From the NCBI GenBank assembly GCA_016218065.1, contig JACRFA010000103.1, positions 1-50,185 of the forward strand: a DNA stretch of 50,185 nucleotides, read 5' to 3'. Source of the DNA: Ignavibacteriota bacterium (GTDB lineage Bacteria > Bacteroidota > Ignavibacteria > UBA10030 > UBA6906). The position numbers and the translations under genes were made by a program. Positions 4,653-48,200 of this stretch are shown piece after piece (the first letter of the stretch is position 1; every line of letters begins with the position of its first letter). Below the pieces are notes generated by a model. It had not been told where the DNA came from. It saw only the letters and a program-made list of their open reading frames with translations, and made no database searches.

Positions 4653-4792
4653 ATTGTTCACCATTAAGCATTGATGTCTAGGTTTTGCCGTTGAAGTGCT
4701 TCTGGCTTCTCGTCGCTTCTGAGAAAATCTGTGCAATCTGTGGTTCACCAACAATCCGCTGCGTATATTACCTGCGACTGGCACGACTCAGG

Positions 4793-4967
4793 ATCGTCAT
4801 TCTGAGTTCAATGACCACGCCGACTCTTCGACTCCGTCCCGACAAACAACGTCGGGACTGCGCTCAGAGTGACGATGCGTCGTTTGTTCGAGCCTGTGTC
4901 ATTAGCAACGAGTCCCGACTGCATTTCAAATCCCGATTTTCGGGATACCGTAAAGTGGCGTCGGGAC
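4793..4967. repeat. Nested inverted repeats (two hairpin units)
   Basis: Unit 1: outer arms ATCGTCATTCTGAG (4793-4806) and CTCAGAGTGACGAT (4863-4876) pair with one mismatch and enclose the perfect arms GTCCCGAC (4836-4843) and GTCGGGAC (4851-4858). Unit 2: arms GTCCCGAC (4912-4919) and GTCGGGAC (4960-4967) enclose ATCCCGA (4930-4936) and TCGGGAT (4940-4946). Both units share the GTCCCGAC arm. They make up most of the spacer before the permease gene. Nothing else in 4653-5107 looks like a gene; the long frame that runs through it into the permease has no family resemblance before 5108. Confidence 0.75.
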
Positions 4968-5107
4968 GAAGTGGAGAATCCAGATCAGAACATGACAGGG
5001 TTTTTGGTCGACGACTGGACTCGTCGAGATTCTTCGGCTCTGGAAAACGAGCCTCAGAGTTTCAATACAACAATACAACCGACACGCGCACATCCTCCCA
5101 TCTCCAC

Positions 5108-6406
5108 ATGAAACGCTACTTCAACTTCGACCTGCATCAGACGAGTTATCGTCAAGAACTTCTCGCCGGCGCGACAACGTTCGTCACGATGGCGTACATC
5201 ATCATTGTCAACCCAGCAATTCTTGCAGCCGCCGGAATTCCGCGCGAAGCGACCGTCACGGCAACAATACTCGCGGCCGCGTTCGGCACACTGATGATGG
5301 GCGTGTATGCGAAGCGCCCATTTGCCGTCGCGCCGCTGATGGGCGAGAACGCGTTCATCGCGTTCACCGTCGTGACAGTGCTTGGCTATTCCTGGCAGAG
5401 CGCGTTGGCTGCCGTCTTCATCAGCGGCGTGCTGTTCATCGTGCTCACGCTTGTTCGCTTGCGGACGTATCTTGCCCAGGCGATTCCCATGTCGTTGAAG
5501 CACAGTTTCGCCGTCGGCATCGGGTTGTTTCTCGCATTTATCGGACTGAACGAAACGGGCATAGTGACGCTCGGCGTCGCGGGCGCGCCGGTGAGAATGG
5601 GAGACATTCGCAGCGCGTCGGTATTACTTGCCGTGCTCGCGTTTTTGCTGACCACGTGGTTCATCATCAAGCGCGTGAGAGCGGCGATTATTCTCGGCAT
5701 ACTCATCGTCACGGCATTGTCGTTTGCGCTCGACATCACTCCGCTGCCCGAGACGCTCGTCAGTATGCCTGCGAGTCTCGCGCCCATCGCGCTGCAGCTC
5801 GATTTCAACGGCCTACTTCGGTGGGGAATGTTTCCGGTGATCTTCACGGTGTTCATGATGGTGTTTGTGGATACGCTTGCCACGCTCTTCGGATTGTCGT
5901 CGCGGGCAAACCTGCTCGACGCGAACGGCAATCTTCCCGGAATCGAAAAGCCGATGCTCACCGACGCTGCGGCGACATCGGTGGCCGCGCTGCTCGGGAC
6001 AACCACAACAGGCGCGTACATCGAATCAGCCGCGGGCATCGAGGCAGGCGGAAGAACAGGCTTCACGTCGGTTGTTGTTGCCGCGCTCTTCGTGCTCGCG
6101 CTTTTCTTCGGGCCGTTGCTCGTCGCCATACCCGCGCACGCCTACGCGCCGTCGCTCATCATCGTCGGACTGCTGATGCTCGAGCCAATCAAGCGCATTC
6201 CGTTCGACGACTACACGGAGTTGGTGCCGGCGTTTGTCACGATCGTGCTGATGGTGTTCACATTCAACATTGGAATTGGGATGACGGCGGGATTTGTCGT
6301 GTACCCTCTTCTGAAACTGCTCACGGGAAGGCGCCGCGAGGTGAGCGGTGGGATGTGGATTCTTGCGGGATTGTCGCTGCTGTTCTTTGTGCTCGCACCA
6401 CATTAG
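5108..6406 (+). CDS. NCS2 family purine permease (AzgA-like)
   Basis: A 432-residue polytopic inner-membrane protein. It starts at ATG 5108 with MKRYFNFDLHQTSYRQELLAGATTFVTMAYIIIVNP, the usual N-terminus of AzgA/GhxP-type hypoxanthine-adenine-guanine permeases; the same frame is open for 140 codons upstream but that part is unlike the family. Recognisable motifs include AYIIIVNPAIL in the first segment, MGENAF around residue 80, FVDTLATLFGLS in the middle and GTTTTGAYIESAAGIEAGGRTGFTSV, the substrate-site region. About 12-14 hydrophobic segments are present, as expected for proton-coupled uptake. Purine specificity within the family cannot be told from sequence alone. Confidence 0.92.
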   Translation: MKRYFNFDLHQTSYRQELLAGATTFVTMAYIIIVNPAILAAAGIPREATVTATILAAAFGTLMMGVYAKRPFAVAPLMGENAFIAFTVVTVLGYSWQSALAAVFISGVLFIVLTLVRLRTYLAQAIPMSLKHSFAVGIGLFLAFIGLNETGIVTLGVAGAPVRMGDIRSASVLLAVLAFLLTTWFIIKRVRAAIILGILIVTALSFALDITPLPETLVSMPASLAPIALQLDFNGLLRWGMFPVIFTVFMMVFVDTLATLFGLSSRANLLDANGNLPGIEKPMLTDAAATSVAALLGTTTTGAYIESAAGIEAGGRTGFTSVVVAALFVLALFFGPLLVAIPAHAYAPSLIIVGLLMLEPIKRIPFDDYTELVPAFVTIVLMVFTFNIGIGMTAGFVVYPLLKLLTGRRREVSGGMWILAGLSLLFFVLAPH

Positions 6407-8011: not shown

Positions 8012-8055
8012 TGCCGTGTACCTTTCAAGAATGCGTTATGATGTGAACAGGAGAA

Positions 8056-8084
8056 TTCTGCGCGGGACGCATTGTCGCGCAGAA
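8056..8084. promoter_or_regulatory. Perfect 9-bp inverted repeat in the ompA-like leader region
   Basis: Arms TTCTGCGCG (8056-8064) and CGCGCAGAA (8076-8084) flank an 11-base loop, 45 bp upstream of the OmpA-like start codon. It could be a protein-binding site or a 5'-leader hairpin. A second, imperfect hairpin (CGTTCAATCG at 8161-8170 with CGATGAACG at 8175-8183) lies further up. The 508-bp spacer 8012-8519 otherwise holds only the candidate small RNA listed below. Confidence 0.45.
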
Positions 8085-8364
8085 GAGAGCGTGTGTCATG
8101 TTGTGTGTGAGAAAACTTGGACTTGAGCTGGGGGCGAGGAACTCAAGGCGTACGATTTGCCGTTCAATCGTGGGCGATGAACGGTGAATGATTGTGATTC
8201 AACGATAACATACAACACCCGGCGCGTTCAATCCGTGAACTGGAGCAAGACAGGACATAGTTGCATCGGTAACGCGGCGCGAGGGACGTGGACGAGAAGC
8301 AGGTTGTACAAGATTGCGGTATCGTATTCGCAACGAAATCGAGTCAACCAGCCCCAGGCGGATA

Positions 8365-8481
8365 TTGACAAAGCCTTGCTATTGAAGTACCTTATCACTG
8401 AGGAAGCGAGGTTGCTATGCTCGATGAGTTGACATAGCGTATCCCACACACAATGTTTGTGTCTGGGATTTTGTTTTTTTT
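8365..8481 (+). ncRNA. Candidate small RNA or transcription attenuator upstream of ybaK
   Basis: A sigma-70-like promoter, TTGACA (8365-8370), 17-bp spacer, TACCTT (8388-8393), is followed about 50 bp later by a strong intrinsic terminator (8441-8481). No convincing coding sequence on the plus strand lies upstream of the terminator, so what it ends is either a short RNA of about 80 nt starting near 8400, or a leader whose termination controls the ybaK gene at 8520. I recognise no known RNA family. The promoter -10 is a poor match. Confidence 0.4.
8441..8481 (+). terminator. Rho-independent terminator
   Basis: Arms ATCCCACACACAA (8441-8453) and TTGTGTCTGGGAT (8457-8469) pair almost completely with a very short loop, followed by a T-rich tract ending in eight T (8474-8481). 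The T tract lies on the plus-strand side only, so it terminates plus-strand transcripts. It stands 39 bp before the ybaK start codon. Confidence 0.85.
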
Positions 8482-8519
8482 CACGTAGTCGATTACTCTC
8501 TATAGGAAAGGGGGATCGT

Positions 8520-9023
8520 ATGACTCTCAAGCGGCTCACGGAGTTTCTTGACAGCAAAAGCATCAAGTATGTCGTGATCCATCATTCGCCCGCGTTTACG
8601 GCGCGGGAAGTTGCGGCCTCTGCTCACATTCCCTGGAGTGAAGTGGCGAAGACGGTGATCGTGAAAGTCGATGGCACTCCGACGATGATTGTTCTGCCCG
8701 CGTCGCAAATGGTGGACTTTGGCGAGTTGCGCACAGCATTGTAGGTTGAGTCGGCGGTGCTTGCCACCGAAGGCGAGTTCAACACGCTCTTCCCTGATTG
8801 CGAGATCGGGGCCATGCCGCCGTTCGGCAATCTGTTCGGGTTGCAGGTGATCGTTGCCGACTCGCTGACGAAGGATCGGGAGATCGCGTTCAACGGCGGA
8901 ACGCATCGGGAAGTCGTGAAGATGGCGTACGCAGATTTCGCGCGGCTCGTAAATCCGAGAATCCTGAAATTCACCTCCGACCGACGTGTACGGGCAGATA
9001 TTTATGAGCAAGGGATCAGCTAG
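8520..9023 (+). pseudogene. YbaK/ProX-type aminoacyl-tRNA deacylase with an in-frame amber stop
   Basis: Start ATG 8520 follows a strong Shine-Dalgarno (AGGAAAGGGGG). The first 74 codons give the N-terminal half of a YbaK/EbsC domain (IKYVVIHHSPAFTAREVAASAHIPWSEVAKTVIVKVDG). A TAG stands at 8742-8744, and the same frame then continues for 92 codons with the C-terminal half (LATEGEFNTLFPDCEIGAMPPFGNLFG, REIAFNGGTHREVVKMAYADFARLVNP). The total of about 167 codons is the normal family length, and nothing is missing except one sense codon. Proteins of this family hydrolyse mischarged tRNAs such as Ala-tRNAPro or Cys-tRNAPro in the cytoplasm. Either a single-base mutation or sequencing error has produced the stop, or it is read through. 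Confidence 0.88.
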
Positions 9024-9373: not shown

Positions 9374-10645
9374 ATGTCTCACACCATCTGCCTCTTTGAA
9401 GATCCTCAATTCGTTAAGCTGCTTCCGCTCGTTTACACCCGACCGGTGTACGAGCTGCGCTGCGGCATTCTTACGTTGCGCGAAAAAATCCAGGCTGCAT
9501 ACCCGAAGGCTTCAACATCGCTGTTGTGCAGACCGTATCTTGCGGAAGTCGTGAAGCAACAGCATCCGGGCACGCAGGTGAACGAAGTGCACTCGGGCAA
9601 TTGCCTGCTGCTAAACGGTCGCATTCTCGCGGACAAGAGTCTCGCGAAGAAAATTCCATTGAAGGGACCTGATGCAGTATATCTTTCTGGGAATGTCGTC
9701 GTGGCAGTTCGGATGAATGCTGGCGGCCGAAAGGCAGTACACGATCTTTCGGAAGTGCTCGATGCCGATCACTTCGCCGAGCTGCAACGAATTGACGTGA
9801 ACGTTGAACTTGTGGAATATCCCTGGCAGCTTGTTCACAAGAATGGCGAGAACATCGTCGCGGATTTCGGGTTGCTCGCACTCAAAGGTACACGAAAAGG
9901 GAAAGTGTATCCCGGCGCGCAGTTGCTTAACAAGAAGCAGATCGCAATCGAGAAAGGCGCAACCATTAAGCCGGGCGTTGTGCTCGACGCGGAGAAGGGA
10001 CCAATCTACATCGGAAAAAATGCAAAGCTTCTTCCCAACGCGGTTGTTGTTGGACCAGCGTTTATTGGTGAGGGATCGATCGTCAAAGTCGGGGCGAAGA
10101 TCTATGAGAATACGAGCATCGGCGAGATGTGCAAAGTCGGGGGCGAGATCGAAGGGAGCATCATTCATTCCTTCTCCAACAAACAACATGACGGCTTTCT
10201 AGGGCATGCATATCTCGGCGTATGGTGTAATCTCGGCGCCGACACGAATAACAGCGATCTGAAAAACAACTACGGCTCGGTGAAAGTGCAAGTGAACGGC
10301 TCGACGATCGACACCGGATTGCAGTTCGTCGGATTGATCATGGGCGATCATTCGAAATCGGGCATCAATACCATGTTCAACACGGGCACAATCGTTGGTG
10401 TCTCGTGTAATGTTTTCGGCGCGGGATATCCACCCAAATTCCTCCCATCATTCATCTGGGGCGGATCGGATGGCGTGGAAACGTACGACATCGAGAAGGG
10501 TCTCGACGTTGAGCGCAAAGTCATGTTGAGAAGGAATGTGCCAATGACTGCGGCCGATGAGATGCTGCTGCGAAAGGTTTTTTCGCTCACGCAGAATGAA
10601 CGCAAGTCTATTCCTCACTCCCCGATTGAGGCGATTGTGTCATGA
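9374..10645 (+). CDS. Bacteroidota-type GlmU family sugar nucleotidyltransferase/acetyltransferase
   Basis: A 423-residue protein beginning at ATG 9374 (MSHTICLFEDPQFVKLLPLVYTRPVYELRCGILTLREKI), preceded by GAAGAAAG; an upstream TTG at 9359 is less likely. The N-terminal half is the divergent nucleotidyltransferase-like domain (PF13562 type, with TRPVYELRCG) and the C-terminal half is a left-handed beta-helix with hexapeptide repeats (IYIGKNAKLLPNAVVVGPAFIGEGSIVKVGAKI), followed by GVWCNLGADTNNSDLKNNYG, which is characteristic of the alternative GlmU of Bacteroidota and relatives. It is expected to make UDP-GlcNAc or a related nucleotide sugar from a sugar 1-phosphate. The stop overlaps the next gene by ATGA. 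Confidence 0.9.
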   Translation: MSHTICLFEDPQFVKLLPLVYTRPVYELRCGILTLREKIQAAYPKASTSLLCRPYLAEVVKQQHPGTQVNEVHSGNCLLLNGRILADKSLAKKIPLKGPDAVYLSGNVVVAVRMNAGGRKAVHDLSEVLDADHFAELQRIDVNVELVEYPWQLVHKNGENIVADFGLLALKGTRKGKVYPGAQLLNKKQIAIEKGATIKPGVVLDAEKGPIYIGKNAKLLPNAVVVGPAFIGEGSIVKVGAKIYENTSIGEMCKVGGEIEGSIIHSFSNKQHDGFLGHAYLGVWCNLGADTNNSDLKNNYGSVKVQVNGSTIDTGLQFVGLIMGDHSKSGINTMFNTGTIVGVSCNVFGAGYPPKFLPSFIWGGSDGVETYDIEKGLDVERKVMLRRNVPMTAADEMLLRKVFSLTQNERKSIPHSPIEAIVS

Positions 10646-11038
10646 AGATACTTGCGCTTTCAGACATCCACGGTTCGTACAAAGCGATGCTTGAGATTGT
10701 CTCGGCAAATCCCTCTGCCGATGTCATTGTCGTCGCGGGAGATCTGACGACGCATGGCAGCGCTGAAGAGGCAGGTCAGGCCTTGGATCATTCCCCATTC
10801 ACCCCCCATCAATACCCAATTGGATATCACTCATTCAGGTAAGCACCTTGGCAGCACAGCAGTACGTGAGTTTATCGAGCGGTCGCAGCCCGATGTAGCA
10901 ATTTGCGGACACATACACGAGGCGAGAGGAGTTGATGTTATCGGAAGAAGTCAGATCGTGAATTGCGGGCCGGTCGGCAAGGGCTGTTATGTTCTCATCA
11001 CCGTCGATGATCAGATATCCATCAGCCTGAAACCCTAA
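10642..11038 (+). pseudogene. Calcineurin-like metallophosphoesterase with internal deletion and frame change
   Basis: The first 46 codons give MKILALSDIHGSYKAML..VIVVAGDLTTHGSAEEAGQALD, the metal-binding DxH and GDxTxxG motifs. The frame then enters unrelated residues and stops at 10842. In another frame from about 10793, PHSPPINTQLDITHSGKHLGSTAVREFIE..VAICGHIHEARGVDVI supplies the C-terminal part with the GHIH motif. The middle of the protein, including the GN(H/D) and the following His motif, about 80-110 residues in relatives, is absent. The join lies near 10785-10800. The original start overlaps the glmU-like stop, so the gene was in an operon with it. The product is expected to be inactive. 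Confidence 0.85.
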
Positions 11039-12157: not shown

Positions 12158-12489
12158 TTGAGAAACCAAATGTCAGATCAAGAAGCGCAGACTCGTATCG
12201 GCGAATCTGGGCGACAGTTCAGAGAATTCCGCGAGGCAGAGTTGCAACGTACGGCCAGATTGCACGGCTGAGTAAGATCCCTGGGCGAGCCAGACTTGTG
12301 GGGTACGCGCTTCACAGCCTGCCATACGGCATCGAAGTCCCGTGGCAGCGGGTGATCAACTCGCAAGGCAAGATTTCATTCCTCGAGCATTCGCGTTCAT
12401 ATCAAAGACAGTTGGCGCTGCTCGTGAAGGAAGGCATACTCTTCAAAAATGGAAGGATAGATCTCAAGAGGTTTGGATGGAAAAAGTAA
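12154..12489 (+). CDS. Alkyltransferase-like DNA repair protein (ATL)
   Basis: A 111-residue protein homologous to the DNA-binding domain of O6-alkylguanine-DNA alkyltransferase: YRRIWATVQRIPRGRVATYGQIARLSKIPGRARLVGYAL, then the active-site region PWQRVINSQGKIS. The alkyl-accepting Cys of PCHRV is a Trp here, the hallmark of alkyltransferase-like proteins, which bind O6-alkylguanine and hand the lesion to nucleotide excision repair without removing the alkyl group. The GTG start overlaps the cdd stop, and its own end overlaps tag by 13 bp. Confidence 0.93.
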   Translation: MIEKPNVRSRSADSYRRIWATVQRIPRGRVATYGQIARLSKIPGRARLVGYALHSLPYGIEVPWQRVINSQGKISFLEHSRSYQRQLALLVKEGILFKNGRIDLKRFGWKK

Positions 12490-13076
12490 GAGGACGTGTA
12501 CTCAAACAAGCGCCGAGTCAGTTAACCCGATGTTCGTGGTGCGGATCAGATCCGCTTTATGTTCACTATCATGATGAAGAGTGGGGCGTTCCGCTTCACG
12601 ATGACCGGCGGCTCTTCGAGATGCTGATACTCGAGGGAGCGCAGGCAGGATTGAGCTGGATTACCATTCTGCGCAAGCGAGAGAACTACCGGAAAGCGTT
12701 CGACAACTTCAACGCGAAGAAGATTTCTCTCTACAATAAGAAAAAAGTGAGAGAGTTGATGAAGGACGAAGGAATTGTCCGCAACCGATTGAAGATCGAA
12801 GCGACGATTTCAAACGCGATTGCTTTTCTGAATGTGCAGAAAGAATTCGGGAGCTTTGACCGGTACATTTGGCAGTTCGTCAACGGCAAGCCGTTATGCA
12901 GTTCGCCGAAGTCGCTCAAGGAGATTCCCGTTTCATCTTCCGAATCCGATACGATGAGCAAGGACTTGAAAAAGCGCGGGTTCCGGTTTGTTGGATCGAC
13001 AATCTGTTATGCGTTCATGCAAGCAACGGGAATGGTGAACGACCATACAACGGAGTGCTGGAGATATAGCGATTGA
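12477..13076 (+). CDS. tag: DNA-3-methyladenine glycosylase I
   Basis: A 199-residue protein starting at ATG 12477, inside the end of the ATL gene. It contains RCSWCGSDPLYVHYHDEEWGVPLHDDRRLFEMLILEGAQAGLSWITIL, the Tag signature with the Cys and His zinc ligands, and the C-terminal FVGSTICYAFMQATGMVNDHTTECWRY with the other His and Cys ligands. It excises 3-methyladenine from alkylated DNA. A longer frame from 12342 is open but its extra residues lie inside the ATL gene. With atl it forms a small alkylation-repair pair. Confidence 0.95.
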   Translation: MEKVRGRVLKQAPSQLTRCSWCGSDPLYVHYHDEEWGVPLHDDRRLFEMLILEGAQAGLSWITILRKRENYRKAFDNFNAKKISLYNKKKVRELMKDEGIVRNRLKIEATISNAIAFLNVQKEFGSFDRYIWQFVNGKPLCSSPKSLKEIPVSSSESDTMSKDLKKRGFRFVGSTICYAFMQATGMVNDHTTECWRYSD

Positions 13077-15162: not shown

Positions 15163-15867
15163 TCAGGGCGTGGCAACTTTATTCTTTCTGGCTTGAACGT
15201 AAAGCGAGCCGACAATGCGAACTTCTTGATCGATTGCCACATCAGGCCTGCGCGGCTCGATCTCAACAAAACCACAACTCTCGCAAAGCTTCTTCAGCGT
15301 TTCGAAATCATACATGAAGCGATGATCAAAATCCTGCCTGAAGCTGACGTTCACATATTCCATTTGCGTCGTCGCCCAGGCAGGATGCCACTTCTTCTGC
15401 TCTGCAAGATACTCCGGTGTTACGCCGGTGACATACATCCGCAGCATTTCTTCTCCGTCTGGAACGACGATACTGAGAACGCCGCCCGGTTCAAGGACGC
15501 GAAAACATTCTCTCATGAATGATGTGGCCGGTTCGGGATAGTCGAGATGCTCAAGAAAGTGCTCCATGTAGATTACGGATGCGCAGTGATCCGATAAGGG
15601 AAACTTGCGGCGCAGATCGATGCTGAGATCGGCAGAAGGTGAAAGATCGACGTTCAGCCATCCCGGCTTGATGTTGCCGCCGGAACCGAGATGCAGCTTC
15701 ATGTGAGTTGACGATCTATACTTTCGCGCTGCGAGTAGTCCGAACGGATGACGCAGAAGCGCGTAGACTTCAAACAGTAATACGGGCGCGAACGGTTCAA
15801 AGCCGATGGGTACGAAGCGATGAATTCGCTCCCGGAGATAGTTGGCGATTCGCTTTTGCAGCGACAT
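15163..15867 (-). CDS. SAM-dependent methyltransferase (class I)
   Basis: A 234-residue protein; ATG 15867 (MSLQKRIANYLRERI) is preferred to an in-frame TTG at 15882. The AdoMet-binding motifs are KLHLGSGGNIKPGWLNVDLSP (motif I and the acidic end of strand 2), ASVIYMEHFLEHLDYPEP (motif IV region) and ECFRVLEPGGVLSIVVPDGE. The last two are typical of methyltransferases near glycan or lipopolysaccharide genes, but no such genes are nearby, so the substrate is unknown. It ends 6 bp from the convergent DUF885 gene with no room for a terminator. Confidence 0.85.
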   Translation of the reverse strand: MSLQKRIANYLRERIHRFVPIGFEPFAPVLLFEVYALLRHPFGLLAARKYRSSTHMKLHLGSGGNIKPGWLNVDLSPSADLSIDLRRKFPLSDHCASVIYMEHFLEHLDYPEPATSFMRECFRVLEPGGVLSIVVPDGEEMLRMYVTGVTPEYLAEQKKWHPAWATTQMEYVNVSFRQDFDHRFMYDFETLKKLCESCGFVEIEPRRPDVAIDQEVRIVGSLYVQARKNKVATP

Positions 15868-16051
15868 GGAATTCACTTGCAAGTGATGGCCGTTCCCCTG
15901 GCGAAGGAAATCTCAGGTCAATCTCCCGAACGTTCGTCGGTGAAGGTCGTGGCGGCGAATTCCGTCGGCCGTGAGTGCTTGCGGCGGTAAAGAACGGAGT
16001 AAAGGCCTGAAGAAACATACTCACATGTCGGGCAAATATCAACCGCCAGAA

Positions 16052-16222
16052 TTATTCCTGCGACTCGACGAGTTCATCCGTTAGATCCCGCTTGCACTCG
16101 CAGATCAATTCGCCGCATTCGGGGCAGCGTGTGAGCATGCGTGTCGCGCACGCGACGCAATATTCGTTTTCCGGTTCAATGATCTTGCCGCACCCGGCAC
16201 AGTGGATTGTCGTCTCCTCCAT
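16052..16222 (-). CDS. Double zinc-ribbon protein, 56 aa
   Basis: This short gene encodes a 56-residue protein starting MEETTIHCAGCGKIIEPE and ending ..DLTDELVESQE. It has eight cysteines in four close pairs: CAGC, CVAC, CPEC and CEC, enough for two zinc ribbons. The ATG (16220-16222) has a strong ribosome binding site, GGAGGA, ending 3 bases before it. It stands alone between the methyltransferase and tamB, on the same strand as both. The acidic tail and Cys pairs suggest an adaptor or redox/metal protein; no function can be assigned. The rest of the spacer (15868-16051) shows nothing. Confidence 0.75.
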   Translation of the reverse strand: MEETTIHCAGCGKIIEPENEYCVACATRMLTRCPECGELICECKRDLTDELVESQE

Positions 16223-16322
16223 GCGTCCTCCGGTCGATACTCATTTCCGACATCGCAATGGTATTGCTTCTCGTCAAACGGTCGAGGAAGGAGGATGTTT
16301 CAGTCAGAATGATTGCGGCGCG

Positions 16323-19300
16323 CTACTTCTCAAGCTTCAGGAAGACATCGAAGCCGCTGTTCTTCTGATCGCCCTGAATGAGTTGGAGGAAGAGAAACTT
16401 GGTCAGCTCGTATTCGAGCGTGATGATTTGAGTTGCGGGCGAATCGGACTCGCCGCTGCCGAACTGCTTTTCCACGCTCATAAACAGATCGTTGGAAATG
16501 TACTTGCCGACGGCGATCGACGATTGCCCGATCGTCTCGCCGCCGCGGATTTCCAGAACGTCGAGTCCCGACGCTCTGCCGAGCGCTGATGAAAGCTGAC
16601 GCGCGGCGAATCCTAGCGCGAGTCCCTGCTCGCTCGCCGATGATTTTTGGCCGAGTGAAAGCGAGTTGAACGGCCTGCCGAACGTAATGTAGGCGATGGC
16701 ATCGGACAACTCGATCCGCTTGTCATCAAGAGAGAACGCGAATCTGGGTGTGTATGCTTTGCCGGTGATTTGCAATGCGAGAATGCGTTCCTCACGATTT
16801 TCATCGCGGAAAGTATATTGCGCGTCAATGTTGAGATCCGGATTGTATTCTTTCCCTCCCCGGAAATCGAGAATGCCGCTCTCAATCTCGAAGCGCTTGC
16901 CCAACACTTCGTACCAACCACGAACAGTTCTGATGTCGCCGAACAACTCAAAGTCCTCGCCTCGCTTTCGCACTTCCATGTCGCCCGCCAGCTCGATCTG
17001 CATGTCGGGACCGCGCAGCCAGGTATTTTTCGGAATCGTCAACTGGAGTGACCCGCGCAGATTCTTGATGTAGTCGAGACCCACCGCTTGCGCACTGTCG
17101 GCGGCGGCTTTTCTGGAAGTTGTTGTGTCAACGCGTCGCGTCGCGCTTACGAGCAGCGGCACGGATGTCTTCGCTCGTTCCTTTTCCATTTTGTCGGTAA
17201 ATGTCGGAAGCCAGACACTCGCTCGCGACACAGAGAGGTTGCCTCCGTACTGAAGATTCCGCGCGTTGCCGCCGAGCTGCGCCTTTCCGTCAATCACCAG
17301 CTCAACATCATCTCCATCGGCAACGACAAATTCATTCGCGGAAAAATCCACGGTCGTTGTCGCGAGAGTTCCGCCAACAACTCCGCCTCCAAATCCGACT
17401 TTGCCCGAGCCGTGAAATGCGCCATCGCCCGTTCGGATGTCGCAGCGCGTCAGCGTGATATTGTCTTTCGTCGCATCGACTTGAAGCTGGATGTCTTCAT
17501 ACTCAATGCCGTATTCGGGATATTCGAATTTGCCGTTGATGATGGCAAGGCGCCCCGATGCCTCCATCGCGCTCAGCGTGTTCGTCACCTTGACCGAACA
17601 CTCCACTGCGCCTTCGGCCTTGATCTCATCCGATCCGGCTTGAAGAATGCCGAGCGTGAGTCCTTGCGATCTCAGCTCCGCGTGCATCGGCTGATTCTTG
17701 AGAAGCACCTGACCGGTATCGGTGAGGGAAATCTTCATCGGCAGCATGCCTTCCGAGATCAGTTTGGATTCGGGCGTGATGTTGAGATTCGAACTCCATC
17801 GGAATTGCTTGTCGGCATACTGGAGTGAACACGTGAGGCTCTCATACTGCAAGGCGTTGACGAAGCCGCCCGTGATGGCAATGTTGCCGTCGAGCTTTGG
17901 CGTTGGCGCGGTTCCTGTCATCCGGAGATTCGCGCTGAGCAGTCCGCCGGCCTTCTGATTCACATTCGCCAGCTCAAGCAGATTCGCGAGATTCAGGTTT
18001 TGCAGCGTGAGCGTGAGGTCATCTGAGCCTTTTAGGGAGAAGCGTCCGTCGACGGCGAACACCTGATCTCCCGATGCAAGCGTGATGTTGTTGAATGTGA
18101 AGATGTCGTTGCGTGATTCGATCCACATGGAATCGCTGCCGCCGCGCAGTTCCTGCTCCTTGTACCCGATCATGAACGCAGGCACGCTGATGCGCGTTCT
18201 GATCGAGTCTGCGGCATAGCGAAGCGTCCAGTCGCCGCGCAAATCGTTGTCTCCGCGGAACGAGACCAGGAATGTCCGCTGCTCATCATACACATCTCCG
18301 CTGACAGTGAAGTTGTCGAGAAGGAGAGTGCCTGTATTGACGTTGTACGCGTGCGCCTCGAATGCGCCGGTGACACTCGTTCCGTTGCGCAAGTTGAATG
18401 AAGCATCGATCGAGTCAACGAGCACGGTGTTGTATTGCAATTGGCCGAGGTTCGCCTCGGCGCTGATGGTGAGACTGTCGCGGTTTCCGCTGATCGATCC
18501 TTCGATAGCGAAATGGCCGGCGATCGTATCGGCCCCGACCACCTGCCGCAACGCAGCAAGCGAGTCGATTCGTGCTTCAAAACGGAGATCGCTCGTTCCG
18601 TCAAGATCGACAAGTCCCTCGGCATGCACGCTTCCGCTCGGCGAGAAAATCTCCATCCGCTCAATTGCATACCGCCGATTGTTGACATTCAACTCCACGA
18701 CGCCTTGCTCAATCGCAAAGCCACGAACTCGCGAGGGGCGGAGAGTAATGTCGACGTTTGATCTCATGTTGTCGGGGGAGAATCCCGATCCATCGGCTGA
18801 GAATTCCATGTTGAGATCAGAACGGAGACTATCGTTCAGCAGCAACGGCGCGATGTCGAGATTTCTGGTGTTGCCCGAAACAGTGTACCGCTGCGCGCCA
18901 TTGACATCCGCGACGCGTCCGGTGAGCGTGAACCCGCCGAACTGCGCATCAAGCGCGGCAGCAGCTGTTATCGTTCCGCGATCTCCCTCCGCGTGCACAG
19001 TGAGCCGGTCAATTGTTCTTCGCATGAGCATCGAGTTGCTCAATTCGCCTTCGACCCTCAACATCGCAGAGCCGACGCTATTTCCCCTCATCCATCCTTG
19101 AATATTTCCGTTCAGATTGGAACTCATGGCCGAGTCATTCATCCAAACACCAACATCGATGTTCTGCATGCTGGCGTCGAACCGGTACACGGGCGTGAGT
19201 TTCATTCCGCCGATGCTGACTCTTCCCGAGAGCGCTTGTTTCCTTTCGACGATCTTTGCATCAGCAGAAATCGAATCGCGCCGCATCCAGACGTTCACAT

Positions 19301-20141
19301 CCAGATTAGGTCGGCGGGGAAACGTTCTTCCCTGCGTTGCCCAACTGAATTCGGACAGGTCAAGTGAATCGATTGTCACCGACGCTTCAGTGCGCCCCAG
19401 TGAATCGGTACTCATGCGCGCATGTGCTTCGAGTCGGTTCTTTGACGTCTGCAACACCACATCACTCACCACAAGATCATCGCCTTCCTTTTTGGTGATG
19501 AGAGAAAACTGTTTCACGCTGAGATTGGGCTTGCGGGTTTCCAGGCGGAGCGACGTCAAGGCAAAATCCATAATATCTTCGCTGTACGCGCCCGAGAGCT
19601 GAACATTGATGTCGTTGATTGCTCGCGGAATCAGCGAAGCTGAATCGATCGGATGAATCCGCACGCGTGCATCGCGAACCGCGACATCGACGAGCATAAG
19701 AAGCCAGGTGAACTCTGCAGGCGCCGACGTATCCGGTTTCGTGAGGTGAGCGAGATTCCATGTCGAATCTTTGAGCTGGCGCAGCACAACGGAGAGCGAA
19801 TCGACGACGATTCTGTCGATGCGAATTTCCCTTTTCAGGAGCGGAAGCAGACTGAACGCCACTTCAAGACGCGGAAGCGCGATGACGGTGTCGTTGTTCG
19901 AAACGATTGTCGCGTTCAGCACACGAATGTTGGAATAGAACGTTCCATCAATAGAACCGATCTGCAGTGTGCCGTTCAAACTCTCCGATGCAGCGGCAAT
20001 TACCTGTTCGCGAACCAGATTGCGAAACGCGGCAGTCTTCATGAATACGAAGATGCCTACCACGAGAAGGAGGAAGAACCCTCCCGTCCACAGAATCGCT
20101 TTCAACCAGCGAGGATATTTGCGTTTGTCGTCAGGCATCAT
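16323..20141 (-). CDS. tamB: TamB-like translocation and assembly module protein
   Basis: A 1272-residue protein with a single N-terminal membrane anchor (AILWTGGFFLLLVVGIFVFM, about residues 14-35) followed by a very long repetitive beta-rich region (AsmA-like start LNGTLQIGSIDGTFYSNIRV, many xLxGxxxLxxG strands). The C-terminal 300 residues match the DUF490/TamB domain (RGWYEVLGKRFEIESGILDFRGG, PDLNIDAQYTFRD, SLGQKSSASEQGLALG, ISNDLFMSVEKQFG). TamB spans the periplasm and works with the Omp85 protein TamA in outer-membrane assembly or lipid transport. It lies 89 bp downstream of tamA on the same strand. Confidence 0.93.
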   Translation of the reverse strand: MMPDDKRKYPRWLKAILWTGGFFLLLVVGIFVFMKTAAFRNLVREQVIAAASESLNGTLQIGSIDGTFYSNIRVLNATIVSNNDTVIALPRLEVAFSLLPLLKREIRIDRIVVDSLSVVLRQLKDSTWNLAHLTKPDTSAPAEFTWLLMLVDVAVRDARVRIHPIDSASLIPRAINDINVQLSGAYSEDIMDFALTSLRLETRKPNLSVKQFSLITKKEGDDLVVSDVVLQTSKNRLEAHARMSTDSLGRTEASVTIDSLDLSEFSWATQGRTFPRRPNLDVNVWMRRDSISADAKIVERKQALSGRVSIGGMKLTPVYRFDASMQNIDVGVWMNDSAMSSNLNGNIQGWMRGNSVGSAMLRVEGELSNSMLMRRTIDRLTVHAEGDRGTITAAAALDAQFGGFTLTGRVADVNGAQRYTVSGNTRNLDIAPLLLNDSLRSDLNMEFSADGSGFSPDNMRSNVDITLRPSRVRGFAIEQGVVELNVNNRRYAIERMEIFSPSGSVHAEGLVDLDGTSDLRFEARIDSLAALRQVVGADTIAGHFAIEGSISGNRDSLTISAEANLGQLQYNTVLVDSIDASFNLRNGTSVTGAFEAHAYNVNTGTLLLDNFTVSGDVYDEQRTFLVSFRGDNDLRGDWTLRYAADSIRTRISVPAFMIGYKEQELRGGSDSMWIESRNDIFTFNNITLASGDQVFAVDGRFSLKGSDDLTLTLQNLNLANLLELANVNQKAGGLLSANLRMTGTAPTPKLDGNIAITGGFVNALQYESLTCSLQYADKQFRWSSNLNITPESKLISEGMLPMKISLTDTGQVLLKNQPMHAELRSQGLTLGILQAGSDEIKAEGAVECSVKVTNTLSAMEASGRLAIINGKFEYPEYGIEYEDIQLQVDATKDNITLTRCDIRTGDGAFHGSGKVGFGGGVVGGTLATTTVDFSANEFVVADGDDVELVIDGKAQLGGNARNLQYGGNLSVSRASVWLPTFTDKMEKERAKTSVPLLVSATRRVDTTTSRKAAADSAQAVGLDYIKNLRGSLQLTIPKNTWLRGPDMQIELAGDMEVRKRGEDFELFGDIRTVRGWYEVLGKRFEIESGILDFRGGKEYNPDLNIDAQYTFRDENREERILALQITGKAYTPRFAFSLDDKRIELSDAIAYITFGRPFNSLSLGQKSSASEQGLALGFAARQLSSALGRASGLDVLEIRGGETIGQSSIAVGKYISNDLFMSVEKQFGSGESDSPATQIITLEYELTKFLFLQLIQGDQKNSGFDVFLKLEK

Positions 20142-20230
20142 TCATGCGCCAGGTTTGCATTTCCCAATCTTATCACTTCACCCGCTTTCTCGCTTCTGAC
20201 TCTCCGATTCTCAACGACTCTCACACCAAA

Positions 20231-22060
20231 TCAAAACGCCTGTCCCACATCAAGATGAAACTGTACGCGCTTCTCGGGATCGAAGAACGGTCGTGCCACA
20301 TCGAACCTGATCGGACCGACGGGAGAATCGATGCGGATGCCCGCGCCGAATGACGTTCGCAAGTCGCCCCACCGCAACGTGTACGCCGAGGTCCACACGT
20401 TGCCGATATCCGAAAACACTACACCCGATACAACGCCGATCAGCGGAAAGCGCAGCTCGTTGTTCAACTCCATCAGACTTCGCCCTCCGAGAGGTTTGTC
20501 GCTCTCATCCACCGGACCGAGACGTTGACGTGACCAGCCGCGAACGGAATTGCTTCCCCCGGAAAAGTAGCGCTCCTCAACCGGGATGAATCGAATGCCG
20601 GTGTACGTATTGGCGAAGCCGATCTTCCATCTCGTTGCAAACACCAGCGGCTCGGAGACGCGTTGATAGCGCCGAACCTCGAACGACGACTTCATGAAAT
20701 GAAACGGACTGTTGAGGCCGAGACCCGAAAGCTGAAACGCGAGAGCAATGTACACGCCGCTGTTTGGTTTGAACAGCGGCGCGGAGTCGTCGTATGTCGC
20801 GCCAGTGCTGATGCTTGATTTGTTGTACGCCATCAGATTAATTCCGGCGATGAACTGAGCAGAATCGAACACACTCTCGTACACGTCAACGCGCTCGAAT
20901 GCGTATGTAACGAAGCCGTTGGTGAACGGGCTGAGTCTGTGCTGAACCGACGCGCTGCTGCCGAACCGCCGCACGTCGAAGCTCTTTTCCTTCTCTCTGC
21001 GAAAGAACGGACTCAGAATGAAGTTGCTGCGTGTTGTGGGAAAATCCGGATTCGTATATGTGAGCGTGAAGTTGTACGGCTCGAGTTTGGAATGCTTCGC
21101 CTTCACGTTAAGGCTTCGCGTCGTGCCGAAGAGGGCGAGGAAGTCCACATTGGCGCTTGCACGGAATCCTGTCTCGGTGCCGATGCCGAGGCCGAACTTT
21201 GATTTGAAGCCGGGCGCTTCGCGCACGTCGATGTTGATCGGGATGACCGACGAGCGGCGGTCACTCAGCGCCGCTTGAAACGACACGGAGCGGAACGCGC
21301 CAAGTGCGAACACTTCCTGCTGCGACTCGTCGATGGCTCGCGGCGAGAACACCTGTCCTTTGTAAAACTGTAGATTGTTGATCACTGCGTCCGGCGGAAT
21401 TTTTTCGGCGCCGGTCACGTTCACGTCGCCGAACGAACACTGCGGCCCTGCGTCAATACTCCAGTCGATGATGACGGTGTTCTGCACCGTATCGACGTTC
21501 AGCGTGTAGTCTGCCTTCACGTAGGGGAAGCCCTGTTCTGTGTAGCGCGTGATCAAGCGCGACTGATCGGCCACCAGCGCGGCATCGTGAAAGCGTTCGC
21601 CCGGCCGCAGCTGCAACACGGATGTCGAGTCAAGCGCAATCTCTTCGACGCGTGCACTGTCGTGCGACGCGGCAATGAACCGGAAGCGCGGCTTCTCGGC
21701 AATCGTCACCGGCGGTCCTTCCTCAATCGTAATCGTCACTTCGACTTCCTTCTCCTCGCGAAATGATTTCACTTCCGGTCGAAGAAGTTTTACGCTCAGA
21801 AATCCCTGCGACTGATAGAAGCGGGTAAGCTCCTCGAGATCGCTGGCAAGAATCTCGGCGCTGAACTCGAAGCGATCCTTGAACAGGAACGTGTGTGAGA
21901 ACCAACTCACCGTGAACATCTGCATACGGTCAAGAAGATCTCCGTCGGACAAGGTCTCGTTGCCGCGAAACGTCAAATCCGTCAATTCATAACCATCCTG
22001 TGCGAGCAACGCAGCAGGAAAGAGCAAAAACAAGAGCATCAGCGACGATCGTTTCTTCAT
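20231..22060 (-). CDS. tamA: TamA-like Omp85 outer-membrane assembly protein
   Basis: A 609-residue protein from ATG 22060 (MKKRSSLMLLFLLFPAALLAQ, signal peptide); an ATG 15 codons upstream is open but gives a non-signal leader. Three POTRA-like repeats occupy about residues 22-270 (YELTDLTFRGNETLSDGDLL; CSFGDVNVTGAEKIPPDAVI). The C-terminal half is a 16-stranded barrel (Bac_surface_Ag) with the signature VRGWSRQRLGP (the lid-lock loop) and a closing strand ending VQFHLDVGQAF with terminal Phe. Together with the adjacent tamB it forms the TAM complex. BamA proper would be longer with five POTRA repeats. Confidence 0.92.
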   Translation of the reverse strand: MKKRSSLMLLFLLFPAALLAQDGYELTDLTFRGNETLSDGDLLDRMQMFTVSWFSHTFLFKDRFEFSAEILASDLEELTRFYQSQGFLSVKLLRPEVKSFREEKEVEVTITIEEGPPVTIAEKPRFRFIAASHDSARVEEIALDSTSVLQLRPGERFHDAALVADQSRLITRYTEQGFPYVKADYTLNVDTVQNTVIIDWSIDAGPQCSFGDVNVTGAEKIPPDAVINNLQFYKGQVFSPRAIDESQQEVFALGAFRSVSFQAALSDRRSSVIPINIDVREAPGFKSKFGLGIGTETGFRASANVDFLALFGTTRSLNVKAKHSKLEPYNFTLTYTNPDFPTTRSNFILSPFFRREKEKSFDVRRFGSSASVQHRLSPFTNGFVTYAFERVDVYESVFDSAQFIAGINLMAYNKSSISTGATYDDSAPLFKPNSGVYIALAFQLSGLGLNSPFHFMKSSFEVRRYQRVSEPLVFATRWKIGFANTYTGIRFIPVEERYFSGGSNSVRGWSRQRLGPVDESDKPLGGRSLMELNNELRFPLIGVVSGVVFSDIGNVWTSAYTLRWGDLRTSFGAGIRIDSPVGPIRFDVARPFFDPEKRVQFHLDVGQAF

Positions 22061-22182
22061 TCTCCTTCTGTAGTCGTTTGTCGTGGGCCGTTTGAAACGC
22101 AGCATAAGATAGAAATTTCGTAATCAATTCTCTTCTCCTTGACATCACTCCGAATTCATGGTACTTTTTACTGGAGTTGTTT

Positions 22183-30850: not shown

Positions 30851-31729
30851 CTACTCGATATTCTGCAACTGCTCGCGGATGCGCTCGATCTCTTCTTTGA
30901 TGTTGACAACGAGATGCGCAATCTCCGCAGCATTCGATTTCGAACCGATGGTGTTGGCTTCGCGATTCATTTCTTGAATCAGGAAGTTCAGCTTGCGACC
31001 GGCAGCATCGTCTTTGGCGATCGCCTCAAGAAAGAATTTGTTGTGACTCCGAAAGCGCACGCATTCTTCAGTAACATCCAACCGATCGGCCATCAGCGCC
31101 AACTCCATCTCCAGCCGTCCCTCGTCGATCGTCTCCTTCTCAAGCAGCGATTGAATTCTGTCGTGCAGTCTGGTGCGTTCGTTGGGAATCTGTTCGGCCG
31201 AAATCTTTTCCACCTGCGCGAGTTTGTCTTCCAAAATGCCAATTCGTTGCCGGAGATCTTTTGCAAGCTCCTCGCCCTCGTTCCGCTTCATCACCAACAA
31301 ATTATCAATCGCCTGATCGAGCGCCTTGTTTACCAGATTCCATTCCTTGTCGTCGGTATTCTCCAACTCCAGGGGCTCAAGCACTTCGGAGACTTGCAGT
31401 AGGTGTACAAGCTTCACGGTCTCGCGCAGCTTCACCGTCTTGCGGAGATCATTCAGCAACTTGAAATAGCCCTTGGCTGCAGACACATTCACGCGGACAG
31501 GAATGTCGCCATCATTCTCATGTTCAACGATGGCAAGCAAATTGACTTTGCCGCGGGAAATCTTCTTCCGAACAATTTCTTTTATCTCATTCTCCCGAAC
31601 CGATAGCGACCTTGGCAAACGGGCGGAGACTTCGAGAAAACGGCTGTTGACGCTTCGCAGCTCGACTGCAACATGTATGCCTCTGGATGCAGCTTCGCCT
31701 CTGCCGTACCCGGTCATGCTCGCTAACAT
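30851..31729 (-). CDS. yicC: YicC family endoribonuclease-like protein
   Basis: A 292-residue protein, the family's normal length. N-terminus MLASMTGYGRGEAASRGIHVAVELRSVNSRFLEVSARLPRSL is the YicC_N signature. The C-terminal DUF1732 domain includes DRIQSLLEKETIDEGRLEMELALMADRLDVTEECVRFRSH and GRKLNFLIQEMNREANTIGSKSN. YicC in E. coli is an RNA endonuclease linked to sRNA turnover. It is the first gene of the operon with gmk, rpoZ, coaBC and udg; the 183-bp gap to the divergent rqcH gene probably holds the promoters of both. Confidence 0.96.
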   Translation of the reverse strand: MLASMTGYGRGEAASRGIHVAVELRSVNSRFLEVSARLPRSLSVRENEIKEIVRKKISRGKVNLLAIVEHENDGDIPVRVNVSAAKGYFKLLNDLRKTVKLRETVKLVHLLQVSEVLEPLELENTDDKEWNLVNKALDQAIDNLLVMKRNEGEELAKDLRQRIGILEDKLAQVEKISAEQIPNERTRLHDRIQSLLEKETIDEGRLEMELALMADRLDVTEECVRFRSHNKFFLEAIAKDDAAGRKLNFLIQEMNREANTIGSKSNAAEIAHLVVNIKEEIERIREQLQNIE

Positions 31730-33817: not shown

Positions 33818-34753
33818 ATGAAATTCGCAATCATTGGTACCGGCGGCGTCGGAGGATATTTCGGCGGTAAACTCGCGAAGGTTGGCGAGGATGTGTGGTT
33901 CATCGCTCGAGGCAAGCATCTTGAAGCCATGCGATCGTATGGACTTCGGATCAATTCGTTCGAGGGAGATTGGGTTGTCGCGTCCGGACAATTCACCGAC
34001 ACTTGCTCGGAGATTGGTCGGGCGGATGTCGTTCTCTTTTGCGTGAAGTCGTACGACACAGAATCCGCGGCAGAGCAGATCGCGCCGCTCGTCTCCGAAA
34101 CGACCATCGTCATCAGTCTCCAGAATGGAGTTGATAACGAAGAGAAGCTCGAACGCATTCTTCCTCGCGGGATTGTGCTTGGAGGCGTTTCGTACATCTA
34201 CGCGACAATCACGTCGCCGGGCGTGATTACGCATACCGTCGGGCCGACGAAAATTGTCTTCGGCGAGCTGAGGAGACGCGATGACGCACCGTCAGCTCAG
34301 GCACGACAAATCCTGGACAGCATGCTGAACGCAAAGATCAATGCGTCGCTTTCTGAAAACATTGCTACGGAGATCTGGAAGAAGTTCATCTTCATTTCGT
34401 CGGTCGGCGGAATGACGGCGCTGACACGCCTGACATTGGGCGAGATTCTCGCCGTCGAGGAAACGAAGCACATGCTTGCCGATGCGATGCGCGAGACGGA
34501 AGCGGTCGGACAGGCCAAAGGAATTCAGCTTCCACCCAACTACACCGGTAGCGTTCTCGAGTTGCTGAAGAAGTACGATAACAACTCGCGCTCGTCATTG
34601 TACCACGATCTCAAGCATGGTAGGCGAATGGAGGTTGAGGCGTTTTCAGGAACAATTGTGCGCTACGGAAGAGAGCTTGGAATTCCGACGCCAGTGCACA
34701 AAGCGATCTATGCGGCGCTGTTGCCGCATCATCTCAAACATACACATTCGTAA
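33818..34753 (+). CDS. panE: 2-dehydropantoate 2-reductase
   Basis: A 311-residue protein of normal length. The Rossmann NADPH site is MKFAIIGTGGVGGYFGGKLAKVGEDVWFIARG. Further family marks are VLFCVKSYDTESAAEQIAPLV, ISLQNGVDNEEKLERIL, GGVSYIYATITSPGVI, and the catalytic Lys in ATEIWKKFIFISSVGGMTALTR, with the C-terminal SSLYHDLKHGRRMEVEAFSGTIV. It reduces ketopantoate to pantoate in the pathway that later feeds coaBC (elsewhere in this window). The next gene starts 17 bp downstream. Confidence 0.96.
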   Translation: MKFAIIGTGGVGGYFGGKLAKVGEDVWFIARGKHLEAMRSYGLRINSFEGDWVVASGQFTDTCSEIGRADVVLFCVKSYDTESAAEQIAPLVSETTIVISLQNGVDNEEKLERILPRGIVLGGVSYIYATITSPGVITHTVGPTKIVFGELRRRDDAPSAQARQILDSMLNAKINASLSENIATEIWKKFIFISSVGGMTALTRLTLGEILAVEETKHMLADAMRETEAVGQAKGIQLPPNYTGSVLELLKKYDNNSRSSLYHDLKHGRRMEVEAFSGTIVRYGRELGIPTPVHKAIYAALLPHHLKHTHS

Positions 34754-45290: not shown

Positions 45291-48200
45291 TTATCTGCTT
45301 ACATCAAGCGTGCTTCGGATTGCATAAAGCACTTCCGCCGGCGAGTAGGGCTTCTGGACAAACTTGCTCAAGCCCATCTGAAGCATTTCTGCTTTTATCG
45401 CAGGCTCGACGAAACCGCTCGCGATAATCACGCGCGCCTTCGGATCGAGTGCTCTGATCCGCCGAAACACCTCATCGCCTCCATACTTCGGTAATCCGAA
45501 GTCGGACAGAACGACGGCGATGTCTTGCTGATGACGCTCGAACAGTGCGAGGCCCTGTTCGCCATCGTAAGCGGACAAGACAGCGTATCCGTTGGCGACA
45601 AGGCTTGTCCTGAGCATTTCCGCAAGCATCTCCTCGTCTTCAATCACAAGTACCGTTTCTGTTCCACCGGCAACGTTGCTCGGATGATCGCGCTGCGTCT
45701 CGTATGATTCAATCATCGGTTCTTCGATGGGGAAGTAGAGATTGAACGCTGTTCCTTTGCCCACCTCCGTGTCAACAGCAATCATCCCGTGGTGACTCTC
45801 GACAATCGAATACACGAGCGCGAGTCCGAGGCCGGTACCGCGGCCCGGTCCTTTTGTGGTGAAGAACGGATCGAAGATGCGTTGCTTCGTTTGCTCGTCC
45901 ATGCCCGTGCCCGTGTCGGAAATTCTGGCCAGCACATACTCGCGTGCGGATGCATTCGGGAACCGCGCCGTTACAGTATCATAGTTCACTGTTGTTGTGG
46001 TGATGGAGAGATTGCCGCCCTTGGGCATCGCATCACGGGCGTTGACGCAGAGGTTGAGAATCACCTGATGAAGCTGAGTCGCGTCGCCGATAATCGACGG
46101 CGCTTTCGGATGCAAATCCGTTGATACCGTAATGGTCTTCGGCAGCGTTTCACGCAGCAGAGCGATCAGTTCAGCAATAATCTGATTGATGGAGAGTGAT
46201 GTGAAGACCGATTCGCCCTTGCGAGCGAAGGTGAGAAGTTGCTTCACAAGACCCGCGCCGCGGAGTCCCGCTTTTTGTATCGACGCAAAATTGTTGGCAG
46301 CCTTCGTCGGGTCGGTAAGGGTCGATTCGCTGACCGCCGAGTAACCGAGAATGATCGCGAGAATGTTGTTGAAGTCATGCGCGATGCCGCTGGCAAGCGT
46401 GCCGAGACTCTCAAGCTTCTGCGCCTGAACAAGCTGCCGTTCCAGTTCTCGTCGTTTGTTTTCGTGTTGCTTCAACTCTTCTTCAGCGCGTTTGCGTTCC
46501 GTAATATCTTCCTTGATCGCGACGAAGTGTGTGATCTTTCCCGCGTCATCTTTGATGGGAGAGATCGATGCGGACTCCCAATACAACTCGCCGTCCTTCC
46601 GCTTGTTGCGGAATTCTCCCCGCCATTCTGATCCGCCCAGGATAGTCTGCCACATGTGTTTGTACTCGTGCTCTGAACTCGCCCCCGATTTGAGGATGCG
46701 TGGATTCTTCCCAAGGATTTCCTCGCGTGAGTACCCGGAAACTCTCTCGAACTTCGGGTTGACGTATTCGATGTTGCCCTGCACGTCCGTAATCACGATG
46801 GAGGCGGGACTCTGTTCGCTCGCGAGCTGAAGCTTTCTCAGACTCTCATGCGCGCGTTTGGCGGCGGTGATGTCGCGAAATACGCCGAACGTTCCGACGA
46901 AACGTCCGTCCTTATCCAACTGAGGAGTTGCGGTTACCAGAAGCACGCGCCTCTCGCCGTCTGCGCGTGTGATCGAAAGTTCGTATGTACTTTTCTGTCC
47001 GGCACTCCTTTTCTCGGTTTCTTGCTTGACTGCAAGCATTTCGTCTTCGTTCACGAATTCGGCAAGATTCCGCTGCGCCATCTCCACCGGCGACAGACCG
47101 AACATTCTCGCGCCCGCCGGATTGATGAAGGTGAACTGCTCGTGAGCGTCAACGATGCCGACTCCTTCTCCCTGATTCTCAATGAGCGTGCGATATCGCT
47201 CTTCGCTTTCGCGCAGCGCCTGCTCTCCCCGTCTCCTCTCGGCGATATCTCGCGCGATCGTGAGGAAGCCGACAGGCTTGGCGTGTTCGTCTCGGAGAAA
47301 TGTTGCCGACAGCTCAACCCAGATTGTCGAACCATCCTTGCGATACACTTCAAGCTCAAGAATGGCCGTACGATCGAGATCGGCAGAGCCGCTTTCCTCA
47401 AGCGCCATTTGCTCAGCGAAAACGCGATTCGCTTTGTCGAAGGAATCAGGTGTAAGAACCTCGGCGAGCGACTGTGTTAAAGACTCTTGCGGTGTGAACC
47501 CACGCAGCTTCTCCACCGCGGGGCTGAAGTACAGCGGCTTCATGTTCAGGTCGAAGACCGCGATCGTGTCTGCTGTGTTCTCAGCAATCAACCGATAGCG
47601 CCTCTCGCTTTCCGCCAGCGCCTTCTCCATGCGTTTGCGGTCAGTGATGTCGGTGCCGAGGGCGATCGCCCCGATGACGCTGCCGTGTTCGTCGCGCTCG
47701 GGAACGAAACGAACACGATGCGACCGCAATTCGCCCTGCGGATTTCGAATCTCAAACTCCATCTCATCAGGCTGACCCGTTTGGATGACGCGGTCGAGCT
47801 TCTCACCATAGCCTTGAGGACGCGGATACTTGTCGGTTGGCTCGACCCGTTTGCCAATGAACGAACGCAGGTCATAACCGACAGTCAGATCGATGTTGTG
47901 GTTGACGTACGTAACGCGGCCATCTTTGTCGTACCGCATGATGTTGTCCGGCGAGCTTTCTGCCAGCGAGCGGTACTTCTGCTCACTTTCTTGCAGGTTG
48001 CGATACATCAAGAAACCGGTTAAACTATCGCTCAGGCGACGACTAATCTCCTCGAAGAACCGCTGTTCTTCTGATGTCCAGATACGCGGGTACGAGCATT
48101 GGTGTATGCCAAAGACCCAGGGCTTGCCGATTCTGGGATACACGGGAATAAACATCTGCGATTGAACACCGAATTGCTTGGCAGCCGAGATGGGTCTTTC

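Follow-up and report, generated by a model that had tools for sequence, protein, structure and literature searches.

An in-frame TAG codon in an aminoacyl-tRNA-editing gene of an Ignavibacteriota bacterium: a probable recent nonsense mutation

INTRODUCTION

According to Belinky et al. 2021 (PMC7918605), in-frame stop codons are widespread in bacterial genes and the genes that carry them are often not pseudogenes. The set compiled there was restricted, to limit artefacts, to stops common to at least two species, and such species-shared stops are described as short-lived. The stop codon reported below resembles them in being a TAG in an otherwise conserved gene, but differs in that none of the relatives examined shares it. 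The other situation to which it can be compared is that of the bacterial pseudogene created by one nonsense substitution. The likeness lies in the single in-frame stop, the otherwise intact frame, the stop-free state of the relatives examined and the persistence of paralogues; no difference was seen, the inactivity of the product being, in our case, something that we infer. Among proteins of solved structure the best relative is PDB 3op6 (E 3.2e-60, profile positions 3-150), an uncharacterized protein from which the copy studied here differs by its interruption at codon 75.

This copy is carried by a 50,185-nt stretch of DNA, hereafter the window (contig JACRFA010000103.1 of assembly GCA_016218065.1). 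An initial annotation had described it as a full-length YbaK-type deacylase gene with an in-frame amber codon, and had left open a recent mutation, an error or readthrough, the preserved second half pointing to a recent event or to a stop that is read.

RESULTS

An editing gene interrupted at codon 75

The interrupted gene (8520-9023, + strand; 167 codons and a stop) starts with the ATG at 8520, encounters a TAG at codon 75 (8742-8744), continues to 9020 and ends with another TAG (9021-9023). When an X is placed at the internal stop, the product matches the whole PF04073 profile (aminoacyl-tRNA editing) from residue 22 to residue 143, i.e. through codon 75, with 86.6 bits for a cut-off of 25.5; scored separately, the two halves reach 35.0 and 40.5 bits. 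Codon-by-codon alignment with 29 relatives is continuous and gap-free at codon 75, and the second half shows neither an additional stop nor a change of frame relative to them. The frame is thus intact on both sides of the TAG and the family match extends across it, as first described. The label 'YbaK-type' held in part. The protein is a member of the YbaK superfamily, as judged from PF04073, and it lies outside the YbaK/EbsC equivalog: with TIGR00011, the model for the YbaK/EbsC Cys-tRNA(Pro) deacylase, it scores 31.3 bits against a cut-off of 153.25. The intact orthologue from G001, one of two genomes of the same genus (G001 and G002), is likewise under that cut-off (41.7 bits).

Two elements, Lys44 and the GAMPP segment (residues 97-101), are invariant in a 10-sequence alignment, and we take both to be important for editing in this family. 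Termination at codon 75 would yield a 74-residue product in which Lys44 is retained and the GAMPP segment is absent, together with the remainder of the fold; for want of these parts it should be inactive.

An 88-amino-acid ORF with a GTG start at 8757 follows the stop, so that a split gene can be envisaged, the C-terminal piece being restarted after the stop and joining the N-terminal one. Against this, inspection by eye revealed no clear ribosome-binding site ahead of the GTG, the cut falls within a single PF04073 domain, and the split form was found neither in the 29 aligned relatives nor among the best 80 of 494 named loci (see below). We consider this arrangement extremely improbable.

About 40 bases 5' of the gene start, a hairpin followed by a U-rich run is present at 8441-8481 on the + strand (-16.4 kcal/mol, z -2.2). 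There is no conserved + strand gene just 5' of it, it does not appear in the output of the terminator scan, and Rfam gave no match over threshold in the window, and none to E 1 within 8012-8540.

Codon 75 in relatives

The relatives were surveyed in 60 genomes, including the genome under study; 38 of them gave a match, at 48 places, 46 of which were in other genomes. At none of these 46 places does a stop lie inside the domain. Three stops were flagged among them; all are behind the domain and are apparently natural gene ends, and were rejected as instances of a shared stop. The 29 relatives that were aligned codon by codon are also free of internal stops, and the residue at the site varies among them (G, N, E, K, S or H). 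From a set of named contigs we retained the best 80 of 494 relatives: none of these 80 carries a stop inside the domain, and the only stops seen, in four of them, are close to the C-terminus. The closest comparison is with G001 and G002, where stop-free orthologues, 71 and 72% identical, are found in the same gene order. The initial annotation had called for an examination of this site in close relatives: it is a sense codon in G001, in G002 and in all 29 aligned sequences. Among the relatives examined the codon-75 stop is private to the genome under study, and it is a presumably inactivating lesion absent from the orthologues, as expected of a pseudogene. Conservation of the stop, as expected of programmed readthrough, was not observed in the genomes and named loci examined.

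The identity of the sense codon bears on whether the TAG is real. Glycine occupies the site in 68 of the best 80 of the 494 named loci, and the three nearest relatives have Gly or Asn. Codons one change away from TAG, as counted from the listings, are present in four of the 29 aligned relatives and in one of the best 80 of the 494 loci. Since most codons at the site are two changes from TAG, the codon that immediately preceded the mutation is one not seen in the nearest relatives, a point against a nonsense substitution. The same distance also weighs against the possibility that the TAG arose in sequencing or assembly, or entered the consensus from a minority strain, the gene being intact in living cells: two bases would have to be wrong for a true Gly codon, and likewise for the Gly or Asn codons of the three nearest relatives. 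In favour of such an error, the editing frame is perfect apart from the TAG, the stop is isolated within 450 kb of the genome (see below), and the assembly is a draft of 319 contigs; CHB1, a record from the same genus, is the assembly of an uncultured bacterium, and ours may also be a metagenome bin. We regard an error or a strain variant as rather unlikely, while giving it real consideration.

Is TAG read as sense in this genome?

A release factor 1 gene (prfA) is present (522.5 bits, cut-off 423.25), the TGA flagged at this locus being the codon immediately before the start and not an internal one; release factor 2 is present as well (528.3 bits). The initial annotation suggested a test for an amber suppressor tRNA: none of the 42 tRNAs found has a CUA anticodon, in a set from which, by comparison with the usual bacterial one, Cys, Ile-GAU, Ala-UGC, Leu-UAA and Val-GAC are missing and which is therefore incomplete. 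The best score for PylS was only 31.5 bits, under the cut-off of 178.15.

The use of TAG was evaluated on 450,019 bases (the window and 20 other stretches), about 9% of the 5.17-Mb genome. The 232 non-overlapping ORFs of at least 200 amino acids end with TGA (104), TAA (70) or TAG (58). The open frame behind a TAG has a median length of 22.5 codons, versus 14 for TAA and 19 for TGA, a non-significant difference (p 0.18 against both together). A two-sided coding score was computed for every stop that had 40 or more open codons both before and after it, 1,899 in all (1,316 TGA, 330 TAG and 253 TAA). The stop at 8742 has the highest value, 8.8, and is the sole one to reach at least 8, which is more than chance would give. 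At a score of at least 6 there are four TAG, one TGA and one TAA, and at a score of at least 4 there are eight, six and six, respectively, so that TAG is somewhat over-represented in the upper part of the list.

The seven other TAGs at or above 4 fall into three groups, the names of the proteins being given partly by eye. Two are at gene junctions (L179 1323 and L177 7410), three are antisense inside other genes (L179 750, and in the window 31400, within 30851-31729, and 5386, within 4685-6406), and for two no protein was recognised (L171 16942 and L175 18196). Long open frames behind stops were also translated in 14 cases, and nine of them (six TAG and three TGA) were scanned for domains with an X at the stop: no domain match crossed the stop in any of the nine, and no family was found for those on L171 (TAG) and L184 (TGA). 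Seven further cases from the coding-score list, once translated, proved to be four apparent gene junctions (named by eye, for example SmpB then TyrRS, or ribosomal protein L2 then S19), one antisense frame and two unrecognised frames. Since the other high-scoring TAGs are junctions, antisense or unrecognised, 8742 is the only stop recognised within one protein domain in this 9% sample. The initial annotation had advised a search for in-frame TAGs in other conserved genes: none was recognised in 450 kb of the 5.17 Mb, where the two TAG cases without a recognised protein remain. Genome-wide reassignment of TAG was rejected, given the lack of a CUA anticodon in the incomplete set of 42 tRNAs, the presence of RF1, the ordinary use of TAG as terminal codon and the isolation of 8742 in the 450 kb sampled.

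A more restricted proposal is that a near-cognate or suppressor tRNA reads the UAG and allows some full-length enzyme to be made. It has arguments on its side: the second half of the gene is intact, relatives accommodate several different residues at the site (G, N, E, K, S or H), a reader of UAG could have been missed in an incomplete tRNA set, TAG is somewhat frequent where both flanks of a stop look coding (the eight, six and six above), and Belinky et al. 2021 (PMC7918605) make the case that bacteria frequently read through in-frame stops. The tRNA, RF1 and PylS results speak against it, as do the absence of the stop from every relative examined and the nature of the seven other TAGs, none of which was recognised as interrupting a protein. 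Functional readthrough or suppression appears improbable.

Paralogues in the genome

Three other PF04073 places were found in the genome, all without stops. One (C107) is a YbaK/EbsC equivalog (154.2 bits for the cut-off of 153.25); another (C227) is a 605-amino-acid frame that reads, by eye, like a prolyl-tRNA synthetase; the third (C30) is another editing-like protein (50.3 bits). In both G001 and G002 there is an additional paralogue, with 42-43% identity to the editing gene; it was not among the matches which that search listed for the genome under study.

Neighbouring genes and a second lesion

The genes of the window were compared with the ORFs of G001 and G002 at an identity of at least 45%, leaving out 34204-34467, an antisense frame of gene 33818-34753, and the flagged pairs outside the window, which were short matches covering 6-14% of the query. 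Two of the 19 genes compared are broken: the editing gene and, 1.6 kb downstream, a YfcE-like metallophosphoesterase gene (10642-11038, + strand), on which the initial annotation of the stop is silent. Relative to the 218-amino-acid ORFs of G001 and G002, this gene has lost about 254 bp and is shifted in frame, with a join near 10784-10791. Its family assignment is weak (43.4 bits for the G001 copy, cut-off 56.25). Between the two broken genes lies an intact GlmU-like gene (TIGR03991; 9359-10645, + strand), with an uninterrupted match of 447.3 bits for a cut-off of 225.3. Two unlike lesions within about 2 kb of each other speak for real decay over an error at codon 75, though either could be an assembly fault; we take the metallophosphoesterase lesion to add some weight to a real loss of the editing gene.

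Other features of the window were noted. The ORFs 12196-12486 and 12528-13067 (the second a methyladenine glycosylase) are separate in the window and in G001, and form a single 305-amino-acid ORF in G002; the pair was not scored as a break because G001 has two ORFs as well. Methyltransferase-like, TamB-like and Omp85-like genes occupy about 7 kb (15163-22105), a segment whose flanking genes have counterparts that are adjacent in G001 and G002. A 1590-amino-acid hybrid sensor kinase, with repeated PAS and GAF domains, a HATPase and a receiver domain, is encoded at 45291-50063 on the - strand.

Selection on the editing gene

In a seven-taxon codon model, omega was 0.094 on the window branch versus 0.055 elsewhere (2dlnL 0.54, not significant), in a near-powerless test where setting omega to 1 costs only 2dlnL 3.73. 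The lack of significant relaxation counts for functional readthrough and against a nonsense mutation, but the seven-taxon values would be the same whether the lesion is very recent, the TAG is an error or the gene is still in use. In three-taxon fits the window omega of the editing gene was 0.075 versus 0.080, and that of the remnant of the broken metallophosphoesterase gene was low too (0.041 versus 0.223). Since the remnant of a broken gene also gives a low omega, the three-taxon fits cannot date the lesion.

DISCUSSION

We consider it probable that a recent nonsense mutation has hit a conserved but dispensable or redundant tRNA-editing gene of the YbaK superfamily. If, as we suppose, the TAG is real, a lineage-specific substitution would have placed it at codon 75, where RF1 would terminate translation, presumably with good efficiency. 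The remaining PF04073 proteins would make the loss bearable. Of the possibilities offered by the initial annotation, the recent event is the one retained, given the clean second half and the intact relatives examined; a stop that is read fits poorly with the incomplete set of 42 tRNAs devoid of CUA, with RF1, with the ordinary use of TAG and with a stop that is not shared.

A particular form of readthrough would turn the stop into a kind of leaky dial: low-level reading of UAG at a tolerant site would supply the full-length enzyme in small amounts, a form of regulation found in this species alone. This we hold to be very improbable. Were the stop read, the gene would be an unusual case, its own stop codon keeping the output of a proofreading enzyme low.

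As a broken gene, the locus is a small matter, a further case in which a redundant tRNA-editing factor is lost. It also serves as a warning: a lone in-frame TAG says little for recoding in a genome that has RF1 and commonly ends its genes with TAG.
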